From the IMG/VR virus record IMGVR_UViG_3300025082_000033, positions 1 through 34,183 of that record: a stretch of DNA of 34,183 nt. One strand, 5' to 3'. Positions 8,447 through 28,377 of this stretch are shown piece after piece. Source of the DNA: a virus. Each line of letters opens with the position of its first letter. The stretch's first letter is position 1. The translations under genes and the position numbers were made by a program. The notes under the pieces were generated by a model, which made no database searches, was not told the origin of the DNA, and saw only the letters and a program-made list of their open reading frames with translations.

Positions 8447-8473
8447 ACTATAGCGATGCTGCCAGCCTGTCAA
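8447..8473 (-). promoter_or_regulatory. candidate leftward promoter for the helicase operon
   Basis: On the minus strand a perfect TTGACA (8473-8468) is followed after 15 bases by TATAGT (8452-8447), 26 bases before the helicase ATG. The spacer is shorter than the usual 16-18, so an activator or relaxed use is possible. The -10 is part of the CTATAGTTT box also found before the Sak4-like gene. Confidence 0.5.
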
Positions 8474-8487: not shown

Positions 8488-8511
8488 GACGTGGTTTCTC
8501 TACGATAGGCT
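8483..8511 (+). promoter_or_regulatory. candidate rightward promoter for regulator and lysin
   Basis: TTGACG (8483-8488) is followed after 17 bases by TAGGCT (8506-8511); TACGAT at 8501-8506 is a better -10 but only 12 bases away. Transcription would start only a few bases before the GGGAGG ribosome-binding site at 8517-8522, giving a very short leader. The call is weak apart from the -35 box. Confidence 0.3.
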
Positions 8512-8527
8512 CTACTGGGAGGTCAAA

Positions 8528-8836
8528 ATGACTAACAAGCACGTAACCGCGTTCTCCAGGCTCATCCGTATGAGTCGAGAGTCTCGTAGCTGGAGCGTTG
8601 CCGAGCTGGCAAGGAGAGCGGGACTGACTCAGCCCGAGGTCAGTCGAGTCGAATCTGGTGCGCGCAAGCCTACCCTGCGTCACGTCAAGGGCCTGGCTGA
8701 GGCCTTTGCGGCAGCCCCCTCGGGGAAGGCCACGGAGCCACAGAAGTACGCGGACTGGTTGGTTCAGTTGGTGGACACCGGAGAGCGTGCTCGCATCAGT
8801 GAACGTATGGAGCGCCTCGGGCGCATCGCTCAATAG
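8528..8836 (+). CDS. XRE-family (Cro/CI-type) helix-turn-helix regulator
   Basis: A 102-residue protein from the ATG at 8528, chosen because GGGAGGT lies a few bases upstream; the frame is open further up but has no such site. Residues about 22-62 form a classical HTH: SWSVAELARRAGLTQPEVSR followed by a VESGARKPTL turn and a helix HVKGLAEAF. The rest is helical and ends in a basic segment, and there is no peptidase or ligand-binding domain as in full CI repressors. It is divergent to the helicase and faces the dyad at 8469-8487. It precedes the lysin by 19 bases, so the two are probably co-transcribed. It could time the switch between the leftward early operon and lysis. A small XRE protein alone does not prove a temperate lifestyle. 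Confidence 0.9.
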   Translation: MTNKHVTAFSRLIRMSRESRSWSVAELARRAGLTQPEVSRVESGARKPTLRHVKGLAEAFAAAPSGKATEPQKYADWLVQLVDTGERARISERMERLGRIAQ

Positions 8837-8855
8837 AAGGAGTTAGTGGGTAATC

Positions 8856-9656
8856 ATGCTGCGCAAAGGTGATATTGGAGACATGGTTCTTTGGCTGCAG
8901 AAGCAGTTGAACCTGCATGGATTCGGCCCTATCGGTGTCGACGGCGTGTTCGGGAAGAACACAGAGAACGCTGTGAAGCGGTTCCAGTGTGCAAGAAAGC
9001 TGTCTGTAGACGGCATCGCTGGGCCCATGACCCAGACCTACCTCAGAGAGACGCCCACGACTCCGTTGAAGCTCGTGTCTCTACGCAGCCCTGCAATCAT
9101 CGAAGTGCTCAAGGAGAAAGGCTACACGGTCTTCGACGACGGGCAGGTGAACTTGATCGGTGTGCGCTTCGAGAGCGAAGAAGCCAACGCCTTCGACGAC
9201 GAGATGCACCTGGTCTGGAAGTCAGGTGATGCCTGGAACCACAAGACCTACCGCATCACCACGGACCCCGGCACCTACTGGCTCAAGAACCCGAGCAATG
9301 TCGACGGGACGGCCATTCTCGTCCCGGGCCAGTACCCTGTGTACCAGTGGGCCTTGCACCAGGGACGCTATCGGACGCTGTGTCAGCGTGGCGGCACAGT
9401 TACTGTCTGGAGAGACAACAACAAGGACAACACACTCGACTACGGCGGCGAAGAGCACACAGGCTGGTTCGGGATCAACATCCACCACGCAGGCACCAAC
9501 AGCACGCAAGTGGATAAGTGGAGCGCCGGCTGCCAGGTTTTTGCCCGGTTGACAGATTGGGGCGAGGCGATGCACATCTGCGAGAGTAGTGGGGTCGAAC
9601 GCTTCACCTACTCGTTGGTAGAAGAGAAGGACTTGCGGTCGACTTCTCTGGCGTAG
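8856..9656 (+). CDS. phage lysin: peptidoglycan-binding domain plus L,D-transpeptidase-like catalytic motif
   Basis: A 266-residue protein. Residues 1-63 match the PG_binding_1 repeat fold: GDIGDMVLWLQKQLN, GVDGVFGKNTENAVKRFQ and VDGIAGPMTQTYL. The C-terminal half has GWFGINIHHAG with H210/H211, and then WSAGCQVF with S223 and C226. A histidine followed about 15 residues later by S-x-G-C is the catalytic layout of YkuD/L,D-transpeptidase-like cysteine enzymes, so a cell-wall active role (lysis) is likely, although the exact bond cut is not visible. There is no signal peptide, so export would depend on a holin; candidates lie in the opposite-strand cassette. AAGGAG lies about 13 bases upstream, rather far. 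The 3' end overlaps a convergent gene by 53 bases. Confidence 0.85.
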   Translation: MLRKGDIGDMVLWLQKQLNLHGFGPIGVDGVFGKNTENAVKRFQCARKLSVDGIAGPMTQTYLRETPTTPLKLVSLRSPAIIEVLKEKGYTVFDDGQVNLIGVRFESEEANAFDDEMHLVWKSGDAWNHKTYRITTDPGTYWLKNPSNVDGTAILVPGQYPVYQWALHQGRYRTLCQRGGTVTVWRDNNKDNTLDYGGEEHTGWFGINIHHAGTNSTQVDKWSAGCQVFARLTDWGEAMHICESSGVERFTYSLVEEKDLRSTSLA

Positions 9657-11711: not shown

Positions 11712-11987
11712 TCAGCCCAGCAGCGCTTTGGCGAAGCGTCCCTCGAGGCTGGTCCAGTCAAGGATGAAGTGTGCCCCTGATGCCGATGCCATGAGAGTAG
11801 CATCCTCTGGCACGGCAGCTTCGATGGCGTTGACCTCTGCATCACTGCTTTCCAGGCAGAGAAAGTCACCATCACTGCCAGCAGTGCCTGTGTAGGTCAC
11901 GCCCCAGATCTCACCCGCAGATGCAGCAGACGCGGCAGATGCAGCAGCTGACGCGGAAGCACACTGGATGATTGCCTGGGTGCTCAC
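11712..11987 (-). CDS. hypothetical virion-associated protein, Ala/Ser-rich N-terminus
   Basis: 91 residues. The N-terminal 25 residues are a low-complexity Ala/Ser helix (CASASAAASAASAASAG) encoded by an 18-base direct repeat. The rest is beta-type (EIWGVTYTGTAGSDGDF, SASGAHFILDWTSLEG). The start overlaps the 3' end of the 292-residue gene by 4 bases. I do not recognise a family; the surroundings are small structural genes. Confidence 0.6.
   Translation of the reverse strand: MSTQAIIQCASASAAASAASAASAGEIWGVTYTGTAGSDGDFLCLESSDAEVNAIEAAVPEDATLMASASGAHFILDWTSLEGRFAKALLG
11917..11960. repeat. 18-base direct repeat coding for Ala/Ser tract
   Basis: The 13-mer GCAGATGCAGCAG occurs at 11917-11929 and 11935-11947, an 18-base period, within the Ala/Ser-rich N-terminus of the 91-residue protein. 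It is an in-frame low-complexity repeat that could change length by slippage. Confidence 0.5.
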
Positions 11988-12862
11988 TTGGTCCAGTCCC
12001 CGAGAGAGTGTACGAAGTATCGAATCTTCTTTATGTCGATTATGTTGGAGTTAGCACCACCAGCACCATCAGCAGTATTACCCACGCCGCTGAAACCCAT
12101 AAAGAAATAATAGTTAACAGCCGAAATCTTATCGTTACCAGCATCCCAGGTTTCTTCTGGGTTGAATGTTCCACCACCCCGGTTAGCAATCAAGTCACCG
12201 AAGTTGGACTCCTGCTTGTTGTAGCTTGCATCCTTCCAGTCGTAAGACATTACTGCATTTACTCGTCCGAGGGCACCAAGCCCTATCTTTGTCCCAATGG
12301 TGTCTACTGACACTGCTGTAGTAGACACCATCTTGGCATTACCCCCACCTGGGTCAATACCGTAATCATGTACTTCTGACACTGCGGTGTCCCCAGTCTG
12401 TACAATAGTCCTTCGGAAGAACCTGTGGGCAGTCGACGATGTAGTAATGTCTGACGATCCATCGAGTTTGATGATGCCGACACTAACACCCATGCTTTCA
12501 ACATTCGCTACCGTCCAATCCCACTCGACAGCAAACCCACCTACTGACCTATACTGGCTAAACGTCTCCACGCCAGGAGGTGCGAACGACGAGATAGGCG
12601 TCGGGATGACAACGAACAGGCCAGAAGTAGCAGTTTGACTGTGAGCAACACCAGTGGTTCCATCAGCGAGAAGGATTCTCAGTGTGGCGGCATCCGGGTT
12701 GGTGATCGTCCATCGATCCACAGAGGACCAGACCTTATTTGCGATGTTGAAGCCAGTTGTGCCGAGAGGGTACTCCTGCCACCGAATCCGTGAGAAGTCC
12801 TGAGACGCATCCGTGAAGACCGTCGTGTCGACACCCGCGAAGACTGAGTGCATGACCGACAT
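11984..12862 (-). CDS. beta-rich virion or appendage protein with AT-rich 3' half
   Basis: 292 residues with a regular strand pattern and lectin- or jelly-roll-like texture (GGFAVEWDWTVANVESMGVS, then SVDTIGTKIGLGALGR and a glycine-rich loop near NRGGGTFNPEETW). The C-terminal part has VNYYFFMGFSGVG and ends FVHSLGDWTK. Phage proteins of this type often bind sugars as receptor-binding or decoration modules, which is inference. Codon and base use shift: the 60 bases from 12061 are 43% GC by hand count, against about 58% in typical neighbouring stretches, suggesting recent exchange of this module. The start lies 5 bases past the previous stop codon. Confidence 0.7.
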   Translation of the reverse strand: MSVMHSVFAGVDTTVFTDASQDFSRIRWQEYPLGTTGFNIANKVWSSVDRWTITNPDAATLRILLADGTTGVAHSQTATSGLFVVIPTPISSFAPPGVETFSQYRSVGGFAVEWDWTVANVESMGVSVGIIKLDGSSDITTSSTAHRFFRRTIVQTGDTAVSEVHDYGIDPGGGNAKMVSTTAVSVDTIGTKIGLGALGRVNAVMSYDWKDASYNKQESNFGDLIANRGGGTFNPEETWDAGNDKISAVNYYFFMGFSGVGNTADGAGGANSNIIDIKKIRYFVHSLGDWTK

Positions 12863-13356: not shown

Positions 13357-16300
13357 TCAAGGGGGGCTGATTGAGCTCTTTTTTCTGCGAGGTATTTCAC
13401 GGCCAGCAAGCTTACCGGGTCTGGTCTCGTACACCTGGAGCATTCCAGTGCGCCGCAGAATCTCTGCTACCTGGGAGGCTGTATCCTCGGTCGATTGCTC
13501 GAACTTGGTTGCGTGCATCTGTAGATACAGCTTGTTGATCTCACTCGCAGCAGCCAGAATCTGTAGTCGTGGGTGCGCTTGGCCGATCAACGCAGGCGCT
13601 ACATCGAGCATCAGAGAAGCGACTCCAGGCGCCACGTAGTAGCGAGCCTCCCTCGTCGTCACGAGACGCTTGGCCTGTTCTCGAGTCAGCGCGGGATTCC
13701 TCTTCATCAGGTCTTCGATGTTGGCGAAGGGGTCCATCTCGGCAGGGATTTTCTTTATGGCGACCTGGCCGGTGGAGATCAGCATCTCACCAATGATGGG
13801 AGATACGCGCATGGGAGGAATGTCGGGGTCCATGCCTGCCATGGACAAGAGAGGTGCAAGCAGAGGGGCTCGATTGACCGGGAACGTGTTGAGCATGATG
13901 TTTTCAAACGCAGGCCCATACGTGTACTCTACTGCGCTCTTGGCTTCGTCTGCGGGTGTGAGTGCCTGCGCTCCTACGAACCCGATACCCAGTTGCATGA
14001 TCCCCGCGATTCCATAGACCATGTGACGCATCCCTGCAGCAATCGTGGACTCGGGAAGAGCTACCACGAAGGCTACTTCGTCTGGGTCGAGGAGTGCCTG
14101 GAACTTGCGGACAGTCTCACTCGCAGCCGGGGGAATGAGGATCACGTTTCGATCTCGCATCCAAGTACTGAGGTCTGACTTCGACGGACGACGAATCGTG
14201 TGCGCGGGGAAGCTCATTCCCTTGAGTTCCTCTCGTCGAGCCAGTTGAAGGACAGAGCTCAACTCGTAGTACTTGCCGTCTTCCAAGATCTGGTCACGGC
14301 CTCGGAAGATTATGTGCATCGCCTTGCGTACTTCGTCGTCGACATTCTCGGGGCCGCCGAAGTAGTCCTCGAGCTGAGCCCGAAGCAGGTAGTACCGAGA
14401 CTGCGTCTCTGGATCGAGGTTCGCGACGTCTACACCGTATGGGTCGACGATGCCCTCGTAGAGGATGTACGACAGTGCGTCCGAGCCTCTCTCCTGGGCA
14501 CGTCGAATGACGCCCATACGATAAGCTCCCCATGGGCTGAACATCATGTCGAACACGTGCTTGTTCGCGTTCTTCTGGAAGGCCCAGAATGGAAGCACCA
14601 TGTTGATCCACCAGCTGCGGTCGAACCCAGACATGGATCCTGCGTAGTCGTAGAGTGCATCAATGGTGAGACGTGCTGCCGTGCGAGGGTCGTAGCCTGC
14701 CTCGACCAGGGTGATCATGGCGCCGAGTCGCTCGCGCTCTGCCCAGGCCTCGGCGATGTCCGCAGTCATGTCGAGTAGGTCGTCATTGAACTGAACGAAC
14801 TTGGAGTCCGTTCTCTTAGCTGCATCGAAGAAGCTATCGATATCCTGCCTGAGAACTCTCTCGAGTGCGCGGGTGTCGAAGCTGGCGAAGATGCCTTCTT
14901 CCACAGCGATGCGTCGAAGCTCTGCTGCGTTGTAGTACTTGGTGGTGCCCCCGTGCGCGAGTGTAATGACTTCGTCGTCTCCCTTGAGCACAGAGTTGAC
15001 GTCTATCCGCCACTTGGTGCCGCTGATGGTCTGGCTGAGCTTGTCAGAGTACTTCTGCAGACCGCGCCTGATCTTCTCGAACTGGTCAGGAGACAGCACA
15101 CCTGTCTTCTGAAGTATGTGTACGCCTCCAGTAATAGGGGGAAGAGTCAGTAGATTCTGTGCAGCGATACGACTCACGCTGGCGAAGGCAGGCCTGAAGC
15201 CTACAGTCATTCCCATCTGCGTGAAGTGGTCGAAGGTGTTCATGATGAAGTACCGGGTCCTCGGGATGTAGGCACCTCGAGTCATCCTGATCTTCAAGAA
15301 CCGGTAGAAGAAATTCCCGGCATCTTGCATATCCTTCAACTCTCCTCTCCCCCGTGCACCGACCTCGAGTCGCTTGAGCGCCATGTTGACTCGATTGAGT
15401 AGCTCCTCGGGCGCCAGGTACGACTTCTTGCCGAGGAGATCCGTGGCCTCCATGAGCACTGGGTTGAGCCCGATACGCCGAGCGTACTCCATGACCTCGG
15501 GCATTATTTTCTCAGACACCTCCATACCGTTTTGCCACGCAGTGAAAGCTTCACCGACCTCTTTTCGTACAACAACGCCCACACGCACCATGTCATCCAT
15601 GGACTTCTTGGCTGCCCCGTAGCCGCCGAGCATCATGAGACCGTGTACCGCAGTAGGTTTCCCTTCTGTCTTCAAAGCTGCGGGAAGCACTCTGTCGAAC
15701 CTCTCCATGGGATTTTCCCATTCCCTCAAGAGCCCGAGCGCGTCGTCATAGTCAACTTTGCTCGCGGACTTCCCCTGTCGCGCTGTAAGTCCCGCATGAA
15801 ACAACAACGACTCGATAATCGACAAAGCCTTTACGTTGTCCTGGCGACCTCCACTGTGTAGCGCAAGCAGTATGGATTTTCCGAAATCACTCTGGCGGAA
15901 CGCATTAAGAATTTCCCCCATGTCGTCTACGGCTTCTACAGGAACGTCTTCGCCGAACCTTACTACTAATTTAGAAGCAATCTCATCAAGCTTGTCAGTC
16001 GGAGCGAGGACCAAGCCAGGCTCTCGAGTTATGCGGTAGAGGAGCCCTTTCGAGATACGCGCCTGCAGTTTAGAGTCAAGGGTTTTGAAGAGCTGCTTGA
16101 CCAAGTCCTGTGAGTCGCCCCAGTAGTTGATGCCTGATGAAGTGACAGGGCGACCAGACTTGAACGAGACAGACTTACCCGTCAAATACTTGATGCAGTT
16201 ATCGTAGTCGCCGTCTTTCGCCAGAGTGACCAGGTCACCAATGGCTTGCTGGACAGGGCGAGTAGCGCCTTCGATGCTGCGTCGAACCGGGGGAGGGAAC

Positions 16301-19300
16301 ACACGGAGGTTCGCATAAGCGTCTCCGCCGAAGATGTAATAGGTCACCAACTTGGTGAGTGTCGTGCCCTGCCCGATGTCATCTTGAAAGAATGAGCGTA
16401 CGATCTCAGCAGCAGACTCCTCGGTGACGTGTCCTCGACGAGTCCAGGGGGCTGGAGCGAGGCTGGCAGGGTTTCTCGCCTGCACGAGCTCCTCGTAAAT
16501 CTGCTGTTGAAGCTTACTGACGTCCTTCTTCGTCAAGGTGACGACACCATCTTTTGCTATGCCGATACCCGTTTCCTCCCCGATTCGGTTGAACATGATG
16601 GGCTTGTCGATGACGAGCTTTCCTGTGGTCTCGAGTTCCTTTGCCAGCTCATTGACACTGCGGGGCGCACCACCGAGACGGTTGATCTCCTTCTGAATCT
16701 CACGAAGTACATCAACGGTGTCGCCTGCCTCACGCAGCTTCTCTTCCCTGGTGTTGCGCAGCAATCGAGAGAACGCCTGCTCCTCGGTCGCGGGCTCCTG
16801 CAGTAGACGATTGAACACGCTCCGGACATCGTCGTTGATGCGGACACCAGAGTCGCCCGACAGCTTCGCGTAGACTCCGACGACGTAGTTCTTGAGCGCG
16901 GTGAACGCCTTGGTGATGTTCGCTGTAGGAGCAGTACCCGACCGGAGATAATCCTCGAATGCATCGGCGAGGATCTCTTCCGCTCGCTTGGTGATGTCAT
17001 CGGTGTCTCCGACGATGCGTGTGCCCTTGCGAACCAGGCTCGCCATCTCTGGGTCGGTCGTCTTCAGCCAGCCCAGCAAGGTGTCGATATCGTTCTCCTC
17101 CAGGTCTCGGACGAGCACCCGCGAGATGCCACGGACCGCATCTCTGAACGTGGCTCCCTCAAAGGCTTCGAGAATCACCCTACCGTCGCTTTCAAATTGG
17201 ATGATGTCCTCGACGACTTCGTCCCGTGGCGTAGCAAAGAGCGGAGCGGGCTTCTCGACCCTGGCCTTGACCTTCGGCGTCAGGTCTACAAAGGGTACTT
17301 TCTCCGGTGGCCAGGTGAAGCGGGCGTCCTCGATACCCACTGACTCGAGAGGCGCCTTCGTGTACTTCTTCACCACGCTGGGCAGGATCTTGTCGTAGAA
17401 CTCTCTGGCGGCTTCCTCAGGCATGCCGACAACTTTAGTGGCTATGTCGCCTCTCGTGAACGCCACACCGTCGTAGCCTTCGTCCGCTGCCTTGCGCAGG
17501 ATGTTCTTGACCGCGAGAGCCGTCCAGGCCTTGGTGTCCTTGAAGGGTGCGTCGGGCACGGACTCTGGGTTCTGCTTAAGAAGCGCCTCGTACTGTGGTC
17601 GAAGACGATCAATCACATTGTCGGGAATACCCAGAGATTTCCACACCTCGATGTTGGGCGTTATCGTCATATCAGGACTCAAGCCAAACTTCTTGAGTTC
17701 CTCCAAGAGTTTGCTTGACTCAACTTGATACCCGACCTGCCGGCCCCTCTGGTGCCAGTCGGACTGGATCTCTTCGACGAAGAGGATCTTCCGGCCTGCC
17801 TCGTCTACTCGGTCAGTCGCGCGGATATGAACCAAGACGTTGGGGGTGTCCCAGTGAGAGCCTTGCGCGCTGCCGAACTCGTCTTTGCGAAGGCTTTTGA
17901 ACCAGTCGCCAACCGATGTGCCATGCGCGTCGTAGCGGTCCCAAACACGATCCCAGACCTCATCATAGTCAGGTACGCTACGCCGTGTGTCTGAAGCGTT
18001 CCATCCATACCAAAGGCGCTGAACATCGGGATCGTCGAGGATCTTCTGCGACTTCATCGGACGAGTGATCAACACTTCGCGGTAGTTCGATCCCGCCTCG
18101 TCACCGTACCCACCAAGGGTGTAGGTGCCCCACTTGGTGCGTGGGATTTTCTGCTCCTTTACAAGTAAATCGAGGTTACCCTTGACGGACTCGAAATCCA
18201 TGAAAGCGTCTGAGTGCTTCAACTCTTCGGCAGCGCTTACCGCACGCTTCATGCGATCTACTTCTCTGAGCAATAGAGCCTCTTTCAGAGACGTGTAAAA
18301 ACGCTGGTCAGCTTCAGGCAGCTTGACTCCAGTAGTGGTGGCGTCTGCGATTGTCGAGTCTACGATGCGGTAAGCCTCGTCAATATCCGCCATCCGTTGT
18401 TTACGGTTGTACCCCATAGGATTGCGAAACAAATCAGCCTTGCCAGATTCAAACAGAGTCAGGACCTTTTTAGCATTAGTGCTCAAATCCTTGGATCCTG
18501 CTCTAATCGCAGCCATCTTAGCGGAACGGATTAATCCAGCAACGGAGGACTCGAAAGCACCAAAAATCTTATCTGGATTATCCTTCACCATGTGAGCCAA
18601 GGTGTTCTCGACCAGGAACCCCTTACTCGTCATGGTGTCTATAAAGTCGCGAACCATTGGCTCAACAGGAGCGTACGCCTCATCAACAGCCCTCTGCGCA
18701 GCCCTCACACGCGGAGGCATGACACCTGCCAACACCTCGTCTACGACGACGCGGTTGTTCTTCAGGTGGTCGAGTATCTCTTTCTTGGTGATCGACGTCT
18801 TGCCCTGTGCGGCAGCGTCATCGAGGAACTGCTCGATATTGGTCCACTCGATCTCTTCTCGCTTGACGCCTTTTCGGAGGGTCCGCATGACCGCTTCCGT
18901 GAGCGGAATCTCCTCGGTGCCGACGATGCGACCAGGTAGCTTCTGCGCAGCCTCCTCCAGCTTGGAGTAGTAAGTCGGTATGTCTTCATCGACCTTGCGC
19001 GGGATCGAGAGCAGAGGCGGCTCGTATATGTAACGGCGCCGTGCGCCTGGCTGTGTGAGAAGTGGGGGAGGACCTTGGCCTGCTTCTATTCGCTGTATGA
19101 CATAACGACTGCGTCCATGCATCAGCCTTTCAAGAGCCTTTACTTCTTCAAGAACAGACCCTTCCGCTTTCTCGACAATCTTGTCTATTCCCCTCCATAC
19201 AAGTCTGAAGGATACGTCGTCAGGGAAGGTCAACACCTTCTCTCTGAGCCTCTCTATCCATGCGCTAGAGTCACCGATATTATTCAGAGCATCATCTACA

Positions 19301-22300
19301 ACCTTGAAGTTGTCCGAGCCCGGATAGTTCCAGTCGTCTGGGAGATACGCCTCGGTTCTAAAGTGGTTTGCGTCTGTCTCTCCTTTGACTCCCTTCCACT
19401 CAAACGGATCTGTAGTCAGGTCTCTCTCGCCCAACTTCAATCCGGCATTGCGATCAACCCCCGGTAGCTGGCCGTCAAAAGTCCAGTCAACAGCAACGCC
19501 CTCTTTGTTGAGCACGGGCTCTTGTGTCGACTTGACTGGAGGAGCAGTCGGCTCGGGCTCAACTTTGACAAGAACACTTACTTCATCTTTTGTTTGATCA
19601 AGTATTTTCTCAGCAGGCTTCCAATTATCGAAGCCCGGACTCCACACCGAGTTGAAGCCGGAAGTATTCGCCCGAACCTTTTCAGCCATTTCGCTGCGGG
19701 TCAAGTTATGAACGGTCGTCTCGCCATCAGTCCAGGCGTAGAGCACCGGGCCTTGCTCAACTGCAGCAGCCTCTGGAAGCGGCTTGACTACAGGCGCTAC
19801 CGGTGCCTCAGTCACAGCAACTGGAGTCGGCTCGTCTATAGGCCGCACCGGGGGCGTTGGCCGCACTGGTGGTGCGGGCTCAAGCGTTGGCTGTACCGGA
19901 GGCAGTGTCGGCTCTGGGGGCCTGACTGGTAGTGGTTGTTCTCCAAGCTCTTTGGGGAAGCGCGTCTTGGCTGCCTTGAATGTGCGCTCCGAGTACTCGA
20001 TGACCCAGGCCAGGGCATTTTGCTCGTCTGCCTTGGTCAAGCCCAGCAGGTCTCCGATGATTTCGACGAACCGAGTGAGCGCATGCTTTACACCACGCGC
20101 CTCGACCGGAATGACCCGCAGAGCCTCTGCAAACTCTGGATCCGTCAACGTGTAGGCGATGATCTCTTCGGCGCGACGAGGCCCGCCCAAGACAGACTTG
20201 TCTGCTATGTGCTCGAAGAGAGCTTTTTGGCTCGACGGGAGATCCGGCTTCTTGAGCTGGTTCTTTGCGTACTCTACGACCTCGGCGGCGAGACGATCCA
20301 GGTCATTATAGGCTACGGCGCGTGCTCGTCTAGCCCAGTTACCGCCTTCCTTGAACTCTCTTTTACCAGCCTGCAACGCAGCGGACGTGGCAGCGTGGAT
20401 TAACTCGTGTACAAGAGTCTGCTCTGTGAGCCCCGTATCGGTCCAGCCTGCGCCTGAAATCTTTATGCCGTTCGCGTCATAAGAGCCGAGCTTGTCAAGC
20501 TTCAGAAGCTCTCTCTCCCTCTGGTTCGACGTGATCTTGAAGTTGATGTCCTTCGAGATGAGGCCCTTGATCCGCTTGCAGAGTTCTCGCGTGACATCGA
20601 GCTCACCGTACTTGGTGAGCCACTCGACTACGTCTTCGGCCTTCTTCATTCCACCGATGTGGTCCCACAGGACAGTCGGCTCCAGTCCATCCATGCGAGC
20701 ACGGGGCGACCCAAACTTGAGCGCCTGACCATCTGGTCCTGTCGGCAACTCTCTCGCAGCAACCACAGGGAGAGCCTGTCGTGGGGGCGCTCCAGAGAGT
20801 TGTGGGGGCACTATGGGAGCGGTAGGTGATACGGGAGCAACAGGCGGTGTTGCGGGAGGTGGTTCAGGCGCACCTGGCTTCTTGGTCGCTTCTGCCTCTT
20901 TGAAACGGAACCGGGTGTTCCACCAGTCCGACTTGGGCAGCCCGTTCTTCCGCTGCCACATCCCGGCTCTCGCGTCGAGTATGCGCGCAAACTGGTCGGC
21001 TCTCTCAGGGCTGACCTTGAAGTTCTTCTGTAGAATCCGCGAGAACTGGTGGCCTTCGGGAGAGACCTCGAAGTAGTGCTGGAACTTCTTGTAGATGTTC
21101 GACGCAATCTCGGTGTACTCGAGATTGAACTTGTCCATGAGCAGCTTCCGCGCCATGAGGTGCGCGCCTGCCCGAATCTCGATGTTCAGGTCGAGCGCGT
21201 CCTCCACCCTGGACAACAGCTTGCCGACCGCAACGTAGTTGTCCTCGTCTACGGCGAAGGCGCCTGCCTTGGCAGCAAGATCATCGAGTCGCTTCTCAAG
21301 AGCCACCACCTCTTTTGCGTCCTTCAGCTTGAGCCGCTCGACAATCGCCTTCTTTGCCTTCTCGGCGTCCGTGAGAAAGTCCGCCATCAGACCGGGCTTC
21401 GGGCCACCGACGAGAATCGCCTTGAGCTTCGCCGCAGTGGCCTCACCGAGCCCCTTTGCATAGTCGGCTTCCTTGAGCGACTTCAAAAAAGCTGTATCGA
21501 GTAGCTGTGCGCGCGTTGCCGGGTTATTGAGCGCTTGCTTGGCGGACTCCAACTTTTCGCGTTTGGTGTGAAATCCGAAGATCCGATCTCTGCGCGTAAG
21601 CACATCGCCTTCTTCGGTTGTCTTGATCACTCGAAGAGATGCTGGGTGTGCGTGGAGCCACTCACCTTGAAGGCGTGAAGGCAGCAGATCGTTCAGTGCC
21701 CTGGCTCCCACTGACAAGATGTCGTCATTGTTCGCCGTACTCGCGAGCACCGACCCAATCGCATCGACGTCTCGCATGACTGTGTCGCCATACTTCGGGT
21801 CCTTGAAGAGATTGGCCTCGAGCATTGCCGCTGTCTTGAGCGCTTCCGGGTCTCCATCAGAGAGGCTCTTGATGACTTTTCCGAGCTCACTCGCCGCCTC
21901 TGCCGCGTCTTTCGCTGAGCCCTTGAACTTGAGGATACGGCTGCCGAGCTTTGACACAGCCACAGCACCCAGCAGTAGATCTGGTGTCAGCACAGAAGCC
22001 GCGAACCCAAGTAAGTGCATCGGTATCGACGTCCACCTACCCGCTGCCTTGGCTGCTTCAGACTCCCCGAGAGTGAAGAACAGGTTTCTACGCTCGGCAA
22101 CGGCACGCTTCATCGCGTCGAGAAGGCTCTCGGTTTCCTTCTTCGTGACAGCCCCTGCAATCACCTTCTCGGGGATGTCCATCAGCTCGAAGAACCACTT
22201 CAGGCCACTCTCCTGGCGCAGGACGACCTGTCCTTCGTTGTTGACGCCGACGATCTCGACGATGGGCATGAACGCCTGACCCCACGTCTTGTTCTCCGCC

Positions 22301-23247
22301 GAAGGCAGGTTGAGTCTGCCCTGTTCGTCGAAGCCAATCGGCACGAAGATGGGAGCTGTCCAGAGCCCCGCTGTCTTCATCATCGCCAGGTCCTTGAGCG
22401 CAGCCTTCTCGAATCTGGACTTCTCCTTCTCCCACTCGGTGCCGTGCTCGGAGAGGCCCAGGTTGCGCATGCGCTGATTCACGTAGAGGTCTTTGTACTT
22501 CGACCAGCCGAGCAGGTCTCCACTGAGCGTCTCTCTCAACTCGATGAGATCCTGCATGTCCTTGTCTGTGGACTTCGCCTTCTTCGACTCTTCGATGAGC
22601 GCCATCGTGTGACCGAACTCGCCTGCTTGGGCGATGTCCTCGGCACCCTTGGCCTCGGTCCCCATGAGACCGCCTGTGGCTTCGCTGATGACATACTCGT
22701 CTGCGCTGGGCATGAACCTGCGGCGAGCCGTATTGAGGTCGATTCCCTCTCTGATGGCCGTTCTCTGGGCAGCTGCCTCACGGATGACCTTGCCCTTCTC
22801 CTTGACGTGCCGGATGTCCTCGGGCATCACCGCAGTGACGCCTCGAGCAGCTACGATCTTCCTGGCCTCTTCGGGGGTCTTGTTCTTCCGACCGACGAGG
22901 TCCACCAGGTCATCGAGGGGCACACCCTGCTTTCGCGCTGCCCGCCAGAGATCATCCTCCGATAGGCCGAGGCTCTTCGCGTGCCACGGGATCACAGCGC
23001 CGATGCTTCGCGGGAATACGATGTCGCCGCCTTCCGAGATGGTTTCTTCTTGCTCTCTCGCTGTTTGAGGCGCCACGGTGGCCGCATTTCGCGCGTTCAC
23101 GGTCGTGTCGATGAGCCGGTCGATCTTGAGATCGATCTCGGGCTCCATCGACTCCTCGATCTTCCCCAGGACCTCCTCAGAGACAGGGGGGATGTCGCGG
23201 ATTGGCGTCTCCGTCGTCGACTCAGCCACCGCGAACCCCGGCTTCAT
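13357..23247 (-). CDS. giant polyvalent protein (about 3296 residues), probably virion-internal and ejected
   Basis: From the ATG at 23247, chosen because translation upstream of it looks like a shadow of the 465-residue gene it overlaps; the frame stays open to 23385 and no start has a strong site. Order of parts: a helical N-terminus; a hydrophobic segment near 405-435 (LLGFAASVLTPDLLLGA); Pro-rich linkers near 820 and 1115; a zincin with HELIH at 947-951 and a possible third ligand in AEEIIAY near 1025; a conserved phage domain with YREVLITRP near 1720, FVEEIQSDWHQRGR near 1826 and DEGYDGVAFTRGD; a second zincin-like domain (about 2000-2155) without HExxH; a C-terminal domain with DYAGSMSGFDRSWW near 2870; and a hydrophobic stretch near 3060-3095. 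These are hallmarks of large polyvalent phage proteins that are ejected with DNA to protect or process it. It is last in the run of internal-protein genes. Confidence 0.85.
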   Translation of the reverse strand: MKPGFAVAESTTETPIRDIPPVSEEVLGKIEESMEPEIDLKIDRLIDTTVNARNAATVAPQTAREQEETISEGGDIVFPRSIGAVIPWHAKSLGLSEDDLWRAARKQGVPLDDLVDLVGRKNKTPEEARKIVAARGVTAVMPEDIRHVKEKGKVIREAAAQRTAIREGIDLNTARRRFMPSADEYVISEATGGLMGTEAKGAEDIAQAGEFGHTMALIEESKKAKSTDKDMQDLIELRETLSGDLLGWSKYKDLYVNQRMRNLGLSEHGTEWEKEKSRFEKAALKDLAMMKTAGLWTAPIFVPIGFDEQGRLNLPSAENKTWGQAFMPIVEIVGVNNEGQVVLRQESGLKWFFELMDIPEKVIAGAVTKKETESLLDAMKRAVAERRNLFFTLGESEAAKAAGRWTSIPMHLLGFAASVLTPDLLLGAVAVSKLGSRILKFKGSAKDAAEAASELGKVIKSLSDGDPEALKTAAMLEANLFKDPKYGDTVMRDVDAIGSVLASTANNDDILSVGARALNDLLPSRLQGEWLHAHPASLRVIKTTEEGDVLTRRDRIFGFHTKREKLESAKQALNNPATRAQLLDTAFLKSLKEADYAKGLGEATAAKLKAILVGGPKPGLMADFLTDAEKAKKAIVERLKLKDAKEVVALEKRLDDLAAKAGAFAVDEDNYVAVGKLLSRVEDALDLNIEIRAGAHLMARKLLMDKFNLEYTEIASNIYKKFQHYFEVSPEGHQFSRILQKNFKVSPERADQFARILDARAGMWQRKNGLPKSDWWNTRFRFKEAEATKKPGAPEPPPATPPVAPVSPTAPIVPPQLSGAPPRQALPVVAARELPTGPDGQALKFGSPRARMDGLEPTVLWDHIGGMKKAEDVVEWLTKYGELDVTRELCKRIKGLISKDINFKITSNQRERELLKLDKLGSYDANGIKISGAGWTDTGLTEQTLVHELIHAATSAALQAGKREFKEGGNWARRARAVAYNDLDRLAAEVVEYAKNQLKKPDLPSSQKALFEHIADKSVLGGPRRAEEIIAYTLTDPEFAEALRVIPVEARGVKHALTRFVEIIGDLLGLTKADEQNALAWVIEYSERTFKAAKTRFPKELGEQPLPVRPPEPTLPPVQPTLEPAPPVRPTPPVRPIDEPTPVAVTEAPVAPVVKPLPEAAAVEQGPVLYAWTDGETTVHNLTRSEMAEKVRANTSGFNSVWSPGFDNWKPAEKILDQTKDEVSVLVKVEPEPTAPPVKSTQEPVLNKEGVAVDWTFDGQLPGVDRNAGLKLGERDLTTDPFEWKGVKGETDANHFRTEAYLPDDWNYPGSDNFKVVDDALNNIGDSSAWIERLREKVLTFPDDVSFRLVWRGIDKIVEKAEGSVLEEVKALERLMHGRSRYVIQRIEAGQGPPPLLTQPGARRRYIYEPPLLSIPRKVDEDIPTYYSKLEEAAQKLPGRIVGTEEIPLTEAVMRTLRKGVKREEIEWTNIEQFLDDAAAQGKTSITKKEILDHLKNNRVVVDEVLAGVMPPRVRAAQRAVDEAYAPVEPMVRDFIDTMTSKGFLVENTLAHMVKDNPDKIFGAFESSVAGLIRSAKMAAIRAGSKDLSTNAKKVLTLFESGKADLFRNPMGYNRKQRMADIDEAYRIVDSTIADATTTGVKLPEADQRFYTSLKEALLLREVDRMKRAVSAAEELKHSDAFMDFESVKGNLDLLVKEQKIPRTKWGTYTLGGYGDEAGSNYREVLITRPMKSQKILDDPDVQRLWYGWNASDTRRSVPDYDEVWDRVWDRYDAHGTSVGDWFKSLRKDEFGSAQGSHWDTPNVLVHIRATDRVDEAGRKILFVEEIQSDWHQRGRQVGYQVESSKLLEELKKFGLSPDMTITPNIEVWKSLGIPDNVIDRLRPQYEALLKQNPESVPDAPFKDTKAWTALAVKNILRKAADEGYDGVAFTRGDIATKVVGMPEEAAREFYDKILPSVVKKYTKAPLESVGIEDARFTWPPEKVPFVDLTPKVKARVEKPAPLFATPRDEVVEDIIQFESDGRVILEAFEGATFRDAVRGISRVLVRDLEENDIDTLLGWLKTTDPEMASLVRKGTRIVGDTDDITKRAEEILADAFEDYLRSGTAPTANITKAFTALKNYVVGVYAKLSGDSGVRINDDVRSVFNRLLQEPATEEQAFSRLLRNTREEKLREAGDTVDVLREIQKEINRLGGAPRSVNELAKELETTGKLVIDKPIMFNRIGEETGIGIAKDGVVTLTKKDVSKLQQQIYEELVQARNPASLAPAPWTRRGHVTEESAAEIVRSFFQDDIGQGTTLTKLVTYYIFGGDAYANLRVFPPPVRRSIEGATRPVQQAIGDLVTLAKDGDYDNCIKYLTGKSVSFKSGRPVTSSGINYWGDSQDLVKQLFKTLDSKLQARISKGLLYRITREPGLVLAPTDKLDEIASKLVVRFGEDVPVEAVDDMGEILNAFRQSDFGKSILLALHSGGRQDNVKALSIIESLLFHAGLTARQGKSASKVDYDDALGLLREWENPMERFDRVLPAALKTEGKPTAVHGLMMLGGYGAAKKSMDDMVRVGVVVRKEVGEAFTAWQNGMEVSEKIMPEVMEYARRIGLNPVLMEATDLLGKKSYLAPEELLNRVNMALKRLEVGARGRGELKDMQDAGNFFYRFLKIRMTRGAYIPRTRYFIMNTFDHFTQMGMTVGFRPAFASVSRIAAQNLLTLPPITGGVHILQKTGVLSPDQFEKIRRGLQKYSDKLSQTISGTKWRIDVNSVLKGDDEVITLAHGGTTKYYNAAELRRIAVEEGIFASFDTRALERVLRQDIDSFFDAAKRTDSKFVQFNDDLLDMTADIAEAWAERERLGAMITLVEAGYDPRTAARLTIDALYDYAGSMSGFDRSWWINMVLPFWAFQKNANKHVFDMMFSPWGAYRMGVIRRAQERGSDALSYILYEGIVDPYGVDVANLDPETQSRYYLLRAQLEDYFGGPENVDDEVRKAMHIIFRGRDQILEDGKYYELSSVLQLARREELKGMSFPAHTIRRPSKSDLSTWMRDRNVILIPPAASETVRKFQALLDPDEVAFVVALPESTIAAGMRHMVYGIAGIMQLGIGFVGAQALTPADEAKSAVEYTYGPAFENIMLNTFPVNRAPLLAPLLSMAGMDPDIPPMRVSPIIGEMLISTGQVAIKKIPAEMDPFANIEDLMKRNPALTREQAKRLVTTREARYYVAPGVASLMLDVAPALIGQAHPRLQILAAASEINKLYLQMHATKFEQSTEDTASQVAEILRRTGMLQVYETRPGKLAGREIPRRKKSSISPP

Positions 23248-24619
23248 ACAACAAGCTGAGGCTCTCGTTGAGGGGGCCGCCGGGGAGGATGTCTCCTGAC
23301 TGCTCGTCTCGAATACGCTGTACCAGAGATTCTCCATACGAATCTCTGTAAGCACGAGCGATGGCTCGTAGCCTCTCAGGGTCACCGGACAATGCGCTCA
23401 AGATCGCACTTCCATCTGTCCCTAAACCCTCTACAGCTTCTCGAATTTGACTTGTAGACTCAGTGACCTGCTGCGAAGAATACGTCTCCGCCTTGGGTTC
23501 TTGGCTACTGCGTGTTCGAGCCTGAGTATCCGAAGGTGGTTCTACAAACGTCGCCTTCCTCGCCTCCTTCCTCGCCTCCTTTTCCACTGCGTCAACAGAT
23601 TGGGCTTCCTCCGCAAGCTCAACGTCAAAGCCGAGAGCCTCCTCTACCTTCTGCAAGTGCGCCCTTGTTTGGGTTGCTTGATTGCTTGAGGCAGTAAGCC
23701 TTGTGACTTCATCTCTCAGTATAGACAACTGCGCGGCATACGCTTCACGGCGGGGACCTGACCCAGTCGAAAGGTAGTCAGACTGCAACGCAGTATATGC
23801 TGTTGCCATTTCCTGCATGTACTCGCGCATCTTCGCATCGAGCGCAGCTTGATACTTCTCGAGTAGCGGAATCGACATGTGTGCGTATTCTTGTTGTAGT
23901 TGCCCAAAATCCGCAAACCCGCCCTCGGTCATCGGACCTGTTGGAACGATGAAGTCCTCATCGATATGCCGAGGTCGCGCCAACGGAGGCGGATCCGCGT
24001 AGATTCGCGCCTTCGTCGCTTCCCGAGAAATTTCAGCCTCGCCCAGAGGAAAGCGCGCCACACCGAGACTCGGTTTTCCGGCAGGCGTAACAGTCCAAGC
24101 ACTCGTTTGCTCCCGAGGCGGTGCGCCGGGTCGATTTGGGGCAAGCCTCTCTGACGAAGGCAAAACCGTACCCGCTGGAAGAAAAGCAGTCGGGCCTACC
24201 CCCTCACCGAGACCTATACGCAACTTGCCAACATCAGTCAGTGGCGCCCTTGTCTGAATCGCTACTTCTCTTCCTGAAGGGCCGACCCTACCCTCATAGA
24301 ATTCGCGTCTCTCTTCTACCGCCCTTTCAGGATGAAGCCCCCTCAATACTGGATCTTGCTCTGTTGGCGTCGGGGTCGCGAGACCTTCTTGATAGAGCCG
24401 CACTCGTTCTCGACCAATCTCCTTTGGCGTCATGTCCTTTGTCGCTACGGCAGCAGCCACAGCCTCCGGCTCGACCTTTCGAGTCTTGGTGCCGGGTGTG
24501 CCTGCGGCTGGTGTGCCTGCGGCTGGTGTGGTGGTGGCCGGTGTGCCTGCGGGTTCATCCACAGCTGTCGATGCTTGAACCGGAACCCCCCCTATACTCA
24601 ACCGCACAGTTGTGCTCAT
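23222..24619 (-). CDS. candidate internal virion protein, 465 residues
   Basis: The ATG at 24619 overlaps the stop of the 1028-residue gene (TAATG). The N-terminus has a pentapeptide repeat rich in T-P-A-A-G. The middle is mostly disordered with PXXP-type segments. Residues about 230-350 are helical and coiled-coil-like (LLEKYQAALDAKMREYMQEM and EVTRLTASSNQ), followed by a KEARKEARK stretch. The C-terminus has a helical segment with IREAVEGLGTDGSAILSALS and IARAYRDSYGESL, like an annexin or saposin-type helical pair; this may be coincidental. Position between the 1028- and 3296-residue genes suggests an ejection protein. Its 3' end overlaps the giant gene by 26 bases. Confidence 0.75.
   Translation of the reverse strand: MSTTVRLSIGGVPVQASTAVDEPAGTPATTTPAAGTPAAGTPGTKTRKVEPEAVAAAVATKDMTPKEIGRERVRLYQEGLATPTPTEQDPVLRGLHPERAVEERREFYEGRVGPSGREVAIQTRAPLTDVGKLRIGLGEGVGPTAFLPAGTVLPSSERLAPNRPGAPPREQTSAWTVTPAGKPSLGVARFPLGEAEISREATKARIYADPPPLARPRHIDEDFIVPTGPMTEGGFADFGQLQQEYAHMSIPLLEKYQAALDAKMREYMQEMATAYTALQSDYLSTGSGPRREAYAAQLSILRDEVTRLTASSNQATQTRAHLQKVEEALGFDVELAEEAQSVDAVEKEARKEARKATFVEPPSDTQARTRSSQEPKAETYSSQQVTESTSQIREAVEGLGTDGSAILSALSGDPERLRAIARAYRDSYGESLVQRIRDEQSGDILPGGPLNESLSLLYEAGVRGG
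24496..24555. repeat. four 15-base tandem units
   Basis: Units of GTGTGCCTGCGGCTG are exact at 24496-24510 and 24511-24525, diverged at 24526-24540 and nearly exact at 24541-24555. On the minus strand they encode a TPAAG-type pentapeptide near the N-terminus of the 465-residue protein. The repeats are in frame, so copy number may vary without breaking the gene. Confidence 0.7.
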
Positions 24620-27600
24620 TACTGCCTCCCCGCCACGACTTGCTCGGTCTCTTCCTCTACCGTCTCCCCTTCCTTCTTTTTCTTCTTGGGACGAGGGAGA
24701 CCGTCAAGGCGATCCATGAATTTGGCAAAGCGTGTGGGAACGAGAGGCTCCTCTGGCGTGGCTCGAGCCTCTTCGCTGAGCAGCTCTCCCTTCCACGCCT
24801 TCGCTATACGCTTCTCCTGTCGCTCCTGCTTCCTGGCTCGTGGTCGTTCCCTCTGAGTCACTGAGGGAGTCTCCGCTGGCGTAGGTACTGGCGGGGGTGC
24901 TTCCGAAGCATCTGGCGAGACTGTTGACGGCTCCTCGAGACTCGCGAGCATGGCAAGACGAGCTTTTTCAGCAACATGCCGCTTGAACTCTTGTCCATAG
25001 TCAGCCCACGCAGCTTGAAGTATCGGGTCTTCTGCGTTCTCTTCGCCCCCAGGAAGAGGTACCCACGCCAAGCCTTCTTCCGTCTCGTACTTCTTATCGG
25101 GGTGCTTGTGTGTCATCCACTGACGAAATGCTTCAGCCTGTGCTGGGTCGTAGTCAGGCACAGAAACGTCCTCACTTACCTCAGCTTCTCCCATACCCTT
25201 TCGCCCAAGTACCTTACCAAACCACCCCCGCGCTCGCGGAGGCGCTTCTGGTTTACCATACAGCTCGGCTTTTTCAGTCTTCGAGAGGGGCTCGAGGTCA
25301 GGCAGGGCTTCCTCTGCAGGCTCCTCGACGGCAGCTACCTCAGTCTCGGCAGACGGCTCGGCAACTTCAGGTTCTTCGACGGGGCGGACAATCTCAGCAA
25401 AAGCGACCGCCAAGTCGCTTCCGGGATCAAGGGGCCATACCTTATCCTCGAGCGCTTTCTTGATCGCGCCCTTGATGATGGGCGTGGCTTCTGAGTCATT
25501 GTACGCATTAATGAGCTTCTGAAGATCCTCAAGCGTGTCTTCTCTCGACGCCTCGAGTTCATCCCCGAAAGTCGGCGCCTCATCTTCAATATCAATATCT
25601 GTGCCTGGGGGCGGAAGAAGTGGAAGATTCTCAAAATCCTCTGCCGGAGGCTCCCAATCCTCTTCAAGCTCCGTGCGAGCACCCTTGAAGCGAGACTCGG
25701 GTCTGACCACGCCAAACAGCTTCTCCAGGGCGCGTCTCTGCCAGGTCTCTGGTCGCTCTGCGGGAATGTCTAAGGGCTCCTCAAGAGGCTCACCATCCAC
25801 AACATCCACATAGCCGCCGTCTTCGACATCGACATCGACTTCGGCTTCGGCTTCTTCTTGGCGTTTGCGTGCTTCGTCTCGACGGGCACGCACCCTGACG
25901 TCGCGCTCAGTCTTGACGCTACTGGGAAAGCCCGTCACACCGAGGGGCTCTTCGGCAGTGACCTGGTACGTGACCGTGGGGTCGTTGATGTCGACGATCT
26001 CTTCCCGCCCAGTGAGCTCATCACGAATACGCCGGGCACCTTCGCCGTACTTCGTCAGGTCCGCGCCATGCATCTTCATCCTGCGGCCTCGTACCTCACG
26101 AGTAGCAGGAAGAGTGTCTAAACGCTCCAGATTGTTGTCCCTGTGCACGTTTTCTTGAGCAGAATCTGCCGATGTCGCCTCGTAAGAACGAGGATTTCGC
26201 GTGAGCAGCACCGCAGCTTCTTCCGCAGTCATGTAACGAACCTTCCCCTCAGCGTCGTAAGTTACGAGAGGCAAGCGCGCATACGATTTATCCGCCTCGG
26301 CCAAGTGAGCTTGAGCATTATCGTCAACAGGAGCAAGTCCCTTGCCGTCATTTGAGTACAGGTAGTACCTACCTTCGCTGTCCACGTAGACAGGAATTTC
26401 TTCGCCCGTGTCTGTATTTGTGATGGGCTTCCCTGAGCCAAAGTCAACTTGATAAAGCGACGGGGCGAGCCCTGTTTCCCTGAGCTCAGCCTCGGTAGCA
26501 GGTTGACCGTCTCGCATGACATAGCCGCCATCGCTATGGCGGAACGTCTCCTGGTCTTCTGGGCTGTAGCCCATTGTCACTCTGACCCACTCGTCGGTGG
26601 GACGGCGCATGCCGACACCGTACCGAGCCTGCTTGCCTCCCTCAGCCACACCTCGAGTGGCTTCCCACCCAAACTGCATGGCAGCCCGCATGTCGTGTCG
26701 ACCCGCGACGTAGTTACCGGCATCATCGACGTATCCGATGGACAGTCCCCGGTCCTTGGCCCACTGCTGTGCTGCGTCCCGACCGACGAACTGCTTGAGC
26801 AGTGCGCGCTTCGGGTCTCCCCCAGCCGTCGACTGTATATCCTCCAGGCGCGCCATCAGCGTCTGTTGAAGCTTGGTCTTCTCGTAGAACTCGTTGAGCT
26901 CTTCTGCAGCCGCCTCACCACTTGAAAGAGGAGACTCGTCAATGGCGTTGTTCGCTCTTGTCGCAATCGACCGAACTCTACCCAGGGCAGCCGCGACTTC
27001 CGCATCTCCCACGTCGCGGCTCACAGTCTCCATCTCAGCGTCGACTTCAGCGATGTCTGACCTGACGTCACTGAGCAACGTGGTCTGATTCTGCTTGAGC
27101 CGTTGATAATGATTGTGGAAATCCTGAATCCTCGCGATCAAGCCGGGGCCCATCCCGGTGCCTTCAGCGATCTCGATGCCTCCGTCTTCGGTGATTCTGA
27201 CTTTGTCGTCACCGATTCGGTCGATGAGGGTCTCCCACGTCGCCGTCGTCTCATTCGTACGCAATCGACTGCCCGGAGACGCGGCTGTTCCAGACTTGTC
27301 GTTGAAAAATGCGTCAAAGCCGGGACCGATGCCCCGTCGACCCGCATTGACAGACGCGCTGATAAGCACTTCATTCCTATGTGTCGCCGACTTCTGGAGG
27401 TCATCTTGTGTCCTGACCAAAGCCGAATGCATCCGAGCCATGGCACTGCGAACACCGTTGCGGTCAGTGACATCGACCTTCGCGAGATTGGTCTCGGCCC
27501 GGATACGTTCGGCGCGAATCTTCGCCCCAGCCTTCAACTGCGCGATGCGCTCATGTGAGAAGGCTGTGTTGATGCCCTTCTCCAAGTTAGCAAGCTGAGT

Positions 27601-27705
27601 GACAAGAACACCCTCGAACTTCAGGTGCTCGGCTTCACTCGTGGGCGTGGACGCACTCCGGGCCGACCATCCGTGTATCAACATGTAGTCGTCCCAGAAG
27701 CTCAT
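24619..27705 (-). CDS. candidate internal virion (ejection) protein, 1028 residues
   Basis: The first ~330 residues are helical and coiled-coil-like (NLEKGINTAFSHERIAQLKA, then repeated long helices). The middle is globular with YxVDxxGRYY-type strands (PVYVDSEGRYYLYSNDGKG). The last ~450 residues are acidic and low-complexity (EVDVDVEDGGYVDVVDG, PVEEPEVAEPSAE) and end in a lysine run (PRPKKKKKEGE). I see no catalytic motif. Very large, helical, charged proteins between the tail and fibre genes and a polyvalent gene are typical of podovirus ejection proteins (compare T7 gp15/gp16 in role, not in sequence). GGGAG lies 9 bases before the ATG at 27705. Confidence 0.8.
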   Translation of the reverse strand: MSFWDDYMLIHGWSARSASTPTSEAEHLKFEGVLVTQLANLEKGINTAFSHERIAQLKAGAKIRAERIRAETNLAKVDVTDRNGVRSAMARMHSALVRTQDDLQKSATHRNEVLISASVNAGRRGIGPGFDAFFNDKSGTAASPGSRLRTNETTATWETLIDRIGDDKVRITEDGGIEIAEGTGMGPGLIARIQDFHNHYQRLKQNQTTLLSDVRSDIAEVDAEMETVSRDVGDAEVAAALGRVRSIATRANNAIDESPLSSGEAAAEELNEFYEKTKLQQTLMARLEDIQSTAGGDPKRALLKQFVGRDAAQQWAKDRGLSIGYVDDAGNYVAGRHDMRAAMQFGWEATRGVAEGGKQARYGVGMRRPTDEWVRVTMGYSPEDQETFRHSDGGYVMRDGQPATEAELRETGLAPSLYQVDFGSGKPITNTDTGEEIPVYVDSEGRYYLYSNDGKGLAPVDDNAQAHLAEADKSYARLPLVTYDAEGKVRYMTAEEAAVLLTRNPRSYEATSADSAQENVHRDNNLERLDTLPATREVRGRRMKMHGADLTKYGEGARRIRDELTGREEIVDINDPTVTYQVTAEEPLGVTGFPSSVKTERDVRVRARRDEARKRQEEAEAEVDVDVEDGGYVDVVDGEPLEEPLDIPAERPETWQRRALEKLFGVVRPESRFKGARTELEEDWEPPAEDFENLPLLPPPGTDIDIEDEAPTFGDELEASREDTLEDLQKLINAYNDSEATPIIKGAIKKALEDKVWPLDPGSDLAVAFAEIVRPVEEPEVAEPSAETEVAAVEEPAEEALPDLEPLSKTEKAELYGKPEAPPRARGWFGKVLGRKGMGEAEVSEDVSVPDYDPAQAEAFRQWMTHKHPDKKYETEEGLAWVPLPGGEENAEDPILQAAWADYGQEFKRHVAEKARLAMLASLEEPSTVSPDASEAPPPVPTPAETPSVTQRERPRARKQERQEKRIAKAWKGELLSEEARATPEEPLVPTRFAKFMDRLDGLPRPKKKKKEGETVEEETEQVVAGRQ

Positions 27706-27717: not shown

Positions 27718-28377
27718 CTATGCAGTCTCTGCCTCTTGGGCCTCTAACGCATCAAGTACAGCCTTGAACTTGGCGTATTCCTCCGCCTTTTCCTCGGTCG
27801 TAGGCGCCCCTTCCTTCAGCGCCAGCGCCATTCCCTGAGTCAAGTCTTCCTTGAGCTCTCTGCGCCTCGACTCCGTCATTTGACTGATCTTGTCAGTGAG
27901 ACGCTGAGTCTGCTGCTGCGAGAGAAGTTCAGCCTTGGCAGCGACCTGGGGGATGACCTCCAGCGCCTGCTTGGCAATCTTCGCGATAACCTCTTGCGGA
28001 CGACCAGACCGACCCGTACCACCCAGCGCAGCCGCTTCGCGTCGAAGCTTCGCCTCGATGTCCTTGGTCGAAGCCTGACTCGCCCGAAGAGCTTCTCCCA
28101 TCATCTGGCGCTTCTGCTGGGGCGTCCAGCCGAGCTTGCCCGCCTTCTGTGCGTCGAGAAGGTCCCGATACTCTGCACGAGACTCACGAGCAGGCTTGGA
28201 GAAGTACGCGGGGGCAGCAGCCAGTGCCTGTGCGGCTCCTACCTTGCCAATATCTAAGGCACTCTTGCCCAATGCAGTGAGTGCAGGAGCGGCACCTGTC
28301 AACGCGGCGGTTCCGCCCGTCGCAGCGTCTTTTTCTGGTTCCTGTATCGTGGCACCGGTTAAAGGATTATCGGCCAT
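27718..28377 (-). CDS. candidate small internal virion protein, 219 residues
   Basis: An Ala-rich N-terminal half with a hydrophobic helix (LTALGKSALDIGKVGAAQALAAAP), then a Gln/Lys/Glu-rich, mostly helical C-terminal half (KAELLSQQQTQRLTDKISQM and a long EEKAEEYAKFKAVLDALEAQ helix). Size, composition and place before the two large ejection-type genes resemble the role of T7 gp14, although there is no recognisable similarity. GAGGTG lies 5 bases upstream of the ATG. Confidence 0.75.
   Translation of the reverse strand: MADNPLTGATIQEPEKDAATGGTAALTGAAPALTALGKSALDIGKVGAAQALAAAPAYFSKPARESRAEYRDLLDAQKAGKLGWTPQQKRQMMGEALRASQASTKDIEAKLRREAAALGGTGRSGRPQEVIAKIAKQALEVIPQVAAKAELLSQQQTQRLTDKISQMTESRRRELKEDLTQGMALALKEGAPTTEEKAEEYAKFKAVLDALEAQEAETA

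Follow-up and report, generated by a model that had tools for sequence, protein, structure and literature searches.

Polyvalent proteins of phages contain an MPTase hub, and zincins serve as their release proteases (Iyer et al. 2017, PMC5512222). The virion RNA polymerase of phage N4, gp50, is laid out as an N-terminal domain, a cargo polymerase, an HExxH domain and a helical C2 domain (PMC12633501). Ejection proteins show mosaicism (PMC8954989), and the core structure of the PhiM1 ejection apparatus has been described (PMC11440229).

The DNA analyzed here (the window), 34183 bases long, is a record from IMG/VR. It is probably a fragment of a larger phage genome, because the complete contigs of its relatives (about 35, all from uncultivated phages) are 64–76 kb long. 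A 9.9-kb gene in the window had been described in a first-pass annotation as coding for a multidomain polyvalent protein. This description was borne out by the location of the gene in a block of virion genes and by the homology of its zincin to zincins in virion ejection proteins with solved structures.

A 9.9-kb gene coding for 3290 amino acids

The minus strand of the window carries an open frame from 13357 to 23385. The gene start had been put at an ATG at 23247, which is 18 nt too far upstream. When the gene was aligned with those of two relatives, L002 and L003, the start in both was a GTG matching window position 23229 (VAESTTETP...). This start gave a protein of 3290 aa, and all residue numbers below are counted from it. 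The gene was judged to be real, because L002 codes for a 3346-aa protein that is 93% identical. A megablast search of phages with the giant gene gave no match.

The HELIH zincin, the YREVL/EIQSDWHQ region, the decayed second zincin, the hydrophobic segments and the Pro-rich linkers of the first-pass annotation were all located in the protein. The features, from the N to the C terminus, are:

13357–23229, minus strand: the giant gene (3290 aa), which starts with GTG at 23229 and shares 8 nt with the gene upstream
20890–23229, minus strand: constant N part, residues 1–780, alignable in divergent relatives
20746–20868, minus strand: Pro-rich linker 1, residues 788–828, N-side border of the exchanged cargo
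19936–20712, minus strand: zincin Z1, residues 840–1098, with HELIHAAT and a conserved downstream Glu
20395–20409, minus strand: HELIH motif, residues 941–945
19807–19929, minus strand: Pro-rich linker 2, residues 1101–1141
19603–19695, minus strand: weak GYF_2-like stretch, residues about 1179–1209, Pfam E 0.07, under the curated cut-off
17230–19047, minus strand: EIQSDWHQ cassette, residues 1395–2000, GNAT-like predicted fold, absent from Pfam as tested
17749–17772, minus strand: EIQSDWHQ motif, residues 1820–1827
16795–17223, minus strand: second zincin, decayed, residues 2003–2145, RGISR at the HExxH position
13357–16794, minus strand: constant C part, residues 2146–3290, mostly helical
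14500–15297, minus strand: core with the highest conservation in the family, residues 2645–2910, RYFxMNTxDHF...ERER...DYAGxM...PFWAFQKNAN

NYREVL was found at about residues 1715–1720. The hydrophobic stretches spanned residues 402–425, 3069–3087 and 3198–3216, with hydrophobicity maxima of 1.8, 1.36 and 1.47. The chance expectation for HExxH was 0.04 per shuffled copy of the protein. There are only two cysteines among the 3290 residues.

A search of NCBIfam with the window protein returned nothing, and Pfam detected no N-terminal peptidoglycan hydrolase in it. According to a review, P22-type gp16 likewise lacks such a hydrolase.

The gene occupies the ejection-protein slot of podoviruses

The genes upstream of the giant gene on the same strand include those for 545, 267, 219, 1028 and 465 aa. 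The following neighbors could be placed:

33508–34131, minus strand: 207-aa tail protein, tail tube A position, PHROG phrog_10775 4.8e-6
30855–32984, minus strand: 709-aa virion structural protein, PHROG phrog_3287 2.8e-5
27718–28377, minus strand: 219-aa gene, putative gp14 position, judged only from size and order
24619–27705, minus strand: 1028-aa gene, gp15/tunnel-protein position
23222–24619, minus strand: 465-aa gene directly upstream of the giant gene, unusually divergent

The order toward the giant gene (219 aa, 1028 aa, 465 aa, giant) is that of the end of an ejection cluster. Weak homologues of the 1028-aa gene also precede the giant gene in four relatives (L007, L008, L009 and L011). 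The cultured Pseudomonas phage UFJF_PfDIW6 encodes a 2039-aa protein with the C-zincin; its gene comes after those for tail tubular A and B, the internal virion proteins A and B and a structural lysozyme. A 1576-aa gene fills the same slot in Limnohabitans phage YIMV22061, and its product combines an SLT transglycosylase with a zincin of the Z1 type. Pelagiphage HTVC028P has the EIQSDWHQ cassette as a protein on its own, adjoining a putative internal virion protein. The giant gene thus occupies the podovirus ejection-protein slot, which is that of T7 gp16 and N4 gp50.

The DNA polymerase and helicase of the window phage had only distant cultured relatives, and the 709-aa structural protein had no cultured relative in the phage collection.

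Some other genes deserve mention. Identity between the 465-aa protein and its counterpart in L002 was only 31% (over 313 aa), against 88–100% for nearly all neighbors; by this comparison its gene is a second fast-changing one. The product of a 292-aa gene at 11984–12862 was 57% identical to its L002 counterpart. Two genes lie on the opposite strand at 8456–9656 (plus), coding for 126 and 266 aa. The 266-aa protein is of the endolysin type, with matches to PHROG endolysins, and in our own reading the 126-aa protein has a helix-turn-helix look.

The intact zincin is homologous to those of solved ejection proteins

In an alignment of Z1, HELIHAAT and the downstream Glu were conserved in nine relatives. 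A Z1 profile built from nine phages was compared with the PDB. It matched the internal virion protein 9sfn (1337 aa; E 4.7e-28), the PhiM1 tetrameric ejection protein gp48 (8vb2; E 3.2e-6) and the N4 vRNAP (E 6e-5). The HExxH was intact in all three aligned regions (HEAVH, HEAAH and HELVH, respectively). A PHROG virion RNA polymerase match (9.6e-11) covered the zincin only. These matches to solved ejection proteins place Z1, by homology, in the zincin family of ejection proteins. It would be expected to act as a protease.

The region of PhiM1 gp48 that matches the zincin profile, with its intact HEAAH, comprises residues 379–515 of 8vb2. The authors of that structure described Asp268–Asp528 as endolysin/exotransglycosidase-like and used on peptidoglycan.

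Cargo is exchanged between constant ends

The DNA of the window was compared with those of L003 and L002 in blocks of 50 codons. Against L003, identity over residues 101–800 was 93–100% in most blocks, with dips to 90% at 351 and to 81% at 601. It fell to 59–78% in the Z1 region (801–1100). The sequences after the Z1 region could not be aligned until about residue 1990, from which point identity was 98–100% to the end of the gene.

The homology of L003 to the window ended at residue 1098, near linker 2. The bay of L003 contains a diverged form of Z1 together with a stretch of 326 aa that carries a different intact zincin, HEILHH (Z3). The borders of the exchange are at linker 1 on the N side and just before the C-zincin on the C side, with alignment lost at linker 2. 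Divergence from L002 was mostly in the EIQSDWHQ cassette (1401–1500, 1651–1700 and 1801–2000), with further patches at 1–100 and 351–450. In two sister pairs, L011/L187 and L202/L214, the difference was a Z1 module.

These comparisons showed, at the level of sequence, that a bay (residues about 800–1990) lies between the constant N and C parts, and that its content has been replaced between near-identical phages.

The ends are shared by a family of relatives and the middle varies

Scans with the C part collected 40 loci, including the relatives first found. Surveyed with profiles made from the family, nearly all of these loci contained the N part and the C-zincin/C-core parts, and the middle varied. 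The contents of the middle were GNAT alone, GNAT with Z1, ART with GNAT and HNHP, EIQSDW with Z1 (the window, L002 and L189), Z3, and others. Pfam detected ART-PolyVal in L006, L008, L009, L193 and L215, and also in L018, which is a giant protein from a different phage. It further detected GNAT in L007–L009 and L011, a C5 DNA methylase in L215, PBECR5 in L193, and M23 at the N terminus of L007 and L011, outside the cargo bay.

The first-pass annotation had anticipated matches to MPTase-PolyVal and LPD families. Pfam gave neither for the window protein, so at Pfam level the annotation was refuted by its own standard, an outcome that only profile comparison, with its link to ejection proteins, reversed. 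ART-PolyVal and PBECR5 were present in the relatives.

A cargo domain in L004, L006, L008 and L009 has an HNHP...S..D pattern resembling JAB/RadC metalloenzymes. It had no Pfam match, and our reading of it as JAB-like is based on the motif.

The hydrophobic stretch at 402–425 in the constant N part was similar in most relatives. Comparison of the N part with the PDB by profile gave nothing convincing. The constant C part (AF2 model with pLDDT 74.1 and pTM 0.76) likewise gave nothing convincing against the PDB by profile or by fold, and Pfam searches over 32 members gave only scattered single matches. Because no relative of the constant parts was detectable in Pfam or among solved structures, the term 'chassis' for them is based on position and conservation.

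At the position of the decayed second zincin (PHROG phrog_9880, 1.1e-11), the alignment had HELGH in L004, HEIGH in L006, and HEMGH in L008 and L009. The cultured phages PfDIW6 and Jess A had HETGH and HEAGH, respectively. On a tree of the C part, the state of the C-zincin changed at least five times. In the window protein, decay has affected the constant-part zincin and spared that of the cargo, which may represent a replacement.

In the family survey, an intact zincin was present in every protein whose non-zincin cargo was larger (over 800 aa where measurable), and proteins without any intact zincin had GNAT as their sole cargo. A general need for an active zincin when the cargo is large was rejected as an idea, because after correction for kinship only three to four independent pairs were left and the association was not significant.

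The EIQSDWHQ cassette is widespread

Among the matches listed, 566 of 599 viral stretches with its patterns encoded a relative of the cassette, and relatives were also encoded in 77 genome contigs. They occurred within giant proteins bearing InPase, LPD5, LPD1, RadC or LPD22, and as proteins of about 550–840 aa. Three stand-alone EIQSDWHQ proteins of about 560–570 aa (L138, L155 and L147) were found outside giant proteins, in gammaproteobacterial genome contigs. No Pfam or NCBIfam family covered the cassette in the window protein, nor did Pfam in the relatives scanned.

Thirty cassette sequences shared 21 invariant positions, with E, H, R, Q, S, D and Y residues among them. The AF2 model of the cassette had a pLDDT of 76.9 and a pTM of 0.70. 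Its top matches in VIA were mostly GNATs, with Z scores of 10.2 for the ICL2 C-domain, 9.9 for AtaT, 9.7 for KacT, 9.4 for TacT2 and 9.3 for NatD. The best match (Z 10.2) extended over 135 residues at 2.9 A and was only slightly above the usual noise of 7–8. Foldseek found nothing significant with the same model (best E 0.14). GRxxGY is conserved after EIQSDWHQ; set against the acetyl-CoA motif R/Q-x-x-G-x-G/A, the last position is not conserved, and the canonical motif is not clear. A GNAT-like fold is somewhat more likely than not, and acetyltransferase activity is predicted with less confidence than the fold.

A match between the cassette profile and the family's own GNAT was discarded, as the core was unaligned and only a meaningless terminal match was obtained.

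Motifs of the h[FY]Q or GxPhF type are common at the ends of unrelated modules (ART, HNHP and EIQSDWHQ), as seen in L006, L008, L009, L018 and the tails of the cassettes. Such ends were found in 81 of 108 cassette tails (8.5 expected) and in 5 of 15 ART ends (0.7 expected). They are perhaps structural, since 39 of the 81 cassette tails lay within 25 aa of the C terminus of the protein. We did not adopt them as cleavage sites; they occur at the C termini of stand-alone proteins as well.

Interpretation and alternatives

We consider it probable that the gene codes for the giant last ejection protein of an uncultivated podovirus, with constant ends, an exchanged bay and injected cargo enzymes. 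As a polyvalent ejection protein, it would be located in the virion, and it may undergo cleavage, have enzyme activity and play an anti-defence role. It would be packaged in the capsid and leave through the tail before the DNA; packaging, ejection and the crossing of the envelope would be the task of the constant ends. In the cell, the cargo enzymes would act during the first minutes. The zincin might either free the modules from the chassis or cut a host protein, and the EIQSDWHQ cassette might modify a host target. More tentatively, and somewhat against the odds, the family may represent a standard chassis with a bay whose cassettes are swapped at or near the borders of linkers, the N4 vRNAP being one special cargo, and the cassette may be a new family of injected effectors of the acyl-transferase type.

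The protein could instead be purely structural or peptidoglycan-degrading, with the zincin and the cassette serving as envelope-penetration modules in the periplasm rather than as cytoplasmic effectors. This is suggested by the M23 peptidase in L007 and L011, the SLT domain in YIMV22061, the endolysin-like reading of the matching gp48 region by the PhiM1 authors and the endolysin label of phrog_7348. However, M23 and SLT sit at the N terminus, outside the bay. The bay modules of the relatives (ART, DNA methylase, PBECR RNase and GNAT) have cytoplasmic substrates, and the cassette also stands alone in bacterial genomes. We therefore regard a purely periplasmic role as unlikely. Kinship with the virion RNA polymerase N4 gp50, the polymerase having been lost or diverged, would account for the same order of parts, the similar sizes of protein and genome, the homology of Z1 to the N4 C1 zincin (hhalign probability 97.8, E 1e-12, against an N4-type C-terminal alignment) and the PHROG virion RNA polymerase match. 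Its probability is low, as that match is limited to the zincin, the C part fails to align with N4 C2, Z1 lies within the bay and not in front of the C part, and the DNA polymerase and helicase indicate no kinship with Schitoviridae.

L003 was assembled from a metagenome and contains ambiguous bases, and its exchanged cassette might have been an assembly chimera of two co-occurring phages. We give this very little weight. The frame of L003 is open across both borders, and the same kind of change was found in independent sister pairs. L197, L200 and L201, which come from other samples, also have the Z3 zincin beside the C-zincin, and this makes a chimera unlikely.

Changes in the enzyme sets of polyvalent proteins were previously inferred from distant comparisons; in the giant ejection protein proposed here, a pair of near-identical phages displays the replacement of the bay. 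Such a replacement between conserved ends points to a natural delivery vehicle with an interchangeable payload, and the borders of the exchange give the limits of modules for testing. EIQSDWHQ marks a widespread domain, missed by annotation libraries and present in hundreds of viral contigs, with an enzymatic prediction. The suggestion that the locus represents an undescribed system is not supported in that form; the exchangeable bay and the uncatalogued, widespread cassette set the protein apart within the already known theme of polyvalent ejection proteins.

Comparison with known systems

Like the polyvalent proteins of phages, the window protein is very large and multidomain, is encoded beside late virion genes and has a zincin hub. 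It joins an intact zincin, the EIQSDWHQ cassette and a decayed zincin in one polypeptide, the second activity being predicted, and ART-PolyVal, GNAT and PBECR occupy the same bay in its relatives. It differs from polyvalent proteins in having no Pfam LPD or MPTase match and in carrying a cassette found in neither Pfam nor NCBIfam as tested. Compared with the polyvalent proteins of Iyer et al. (2017), the present family documents an exchangeable bay between constant ends.

The cassette resembles GNAT acetyltransferases (AtaT, KacT, TacT, NatD and the ICL2 C-domain) in its predicted fold, at Z 9–10. Unlike these, it has no sequence match, has EIQSDWHQ...GRxxGY in place of a clear acetyl-CoA motif, and contains a large helical insertion.

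With N4 gp50 the protein shares an N part, a cargo, an HExxH domain with homologous zincin and a large helical C part. Unlike gp50, it has no polymerase match, and its constant-part zincin is decayed. No match was found by hhalign between the constant C part and N4 C2, so that the common chassis is a resemblance of layout and not a shown homology. By the genes tested (DNA polymerase and helicase), the window phage, unlike N4, is not a relative of Schitoviridae.

Compared with the tetrameric ejection proteins of the T7 gp16 type (PhiM1 gp48, 8vb2; 9sfn), the window protein is 2.5 times longer, has no transglycosylase and gave no detectable homology in the hub. The two nevertheless have in common the gene slot and a homologous zincin.
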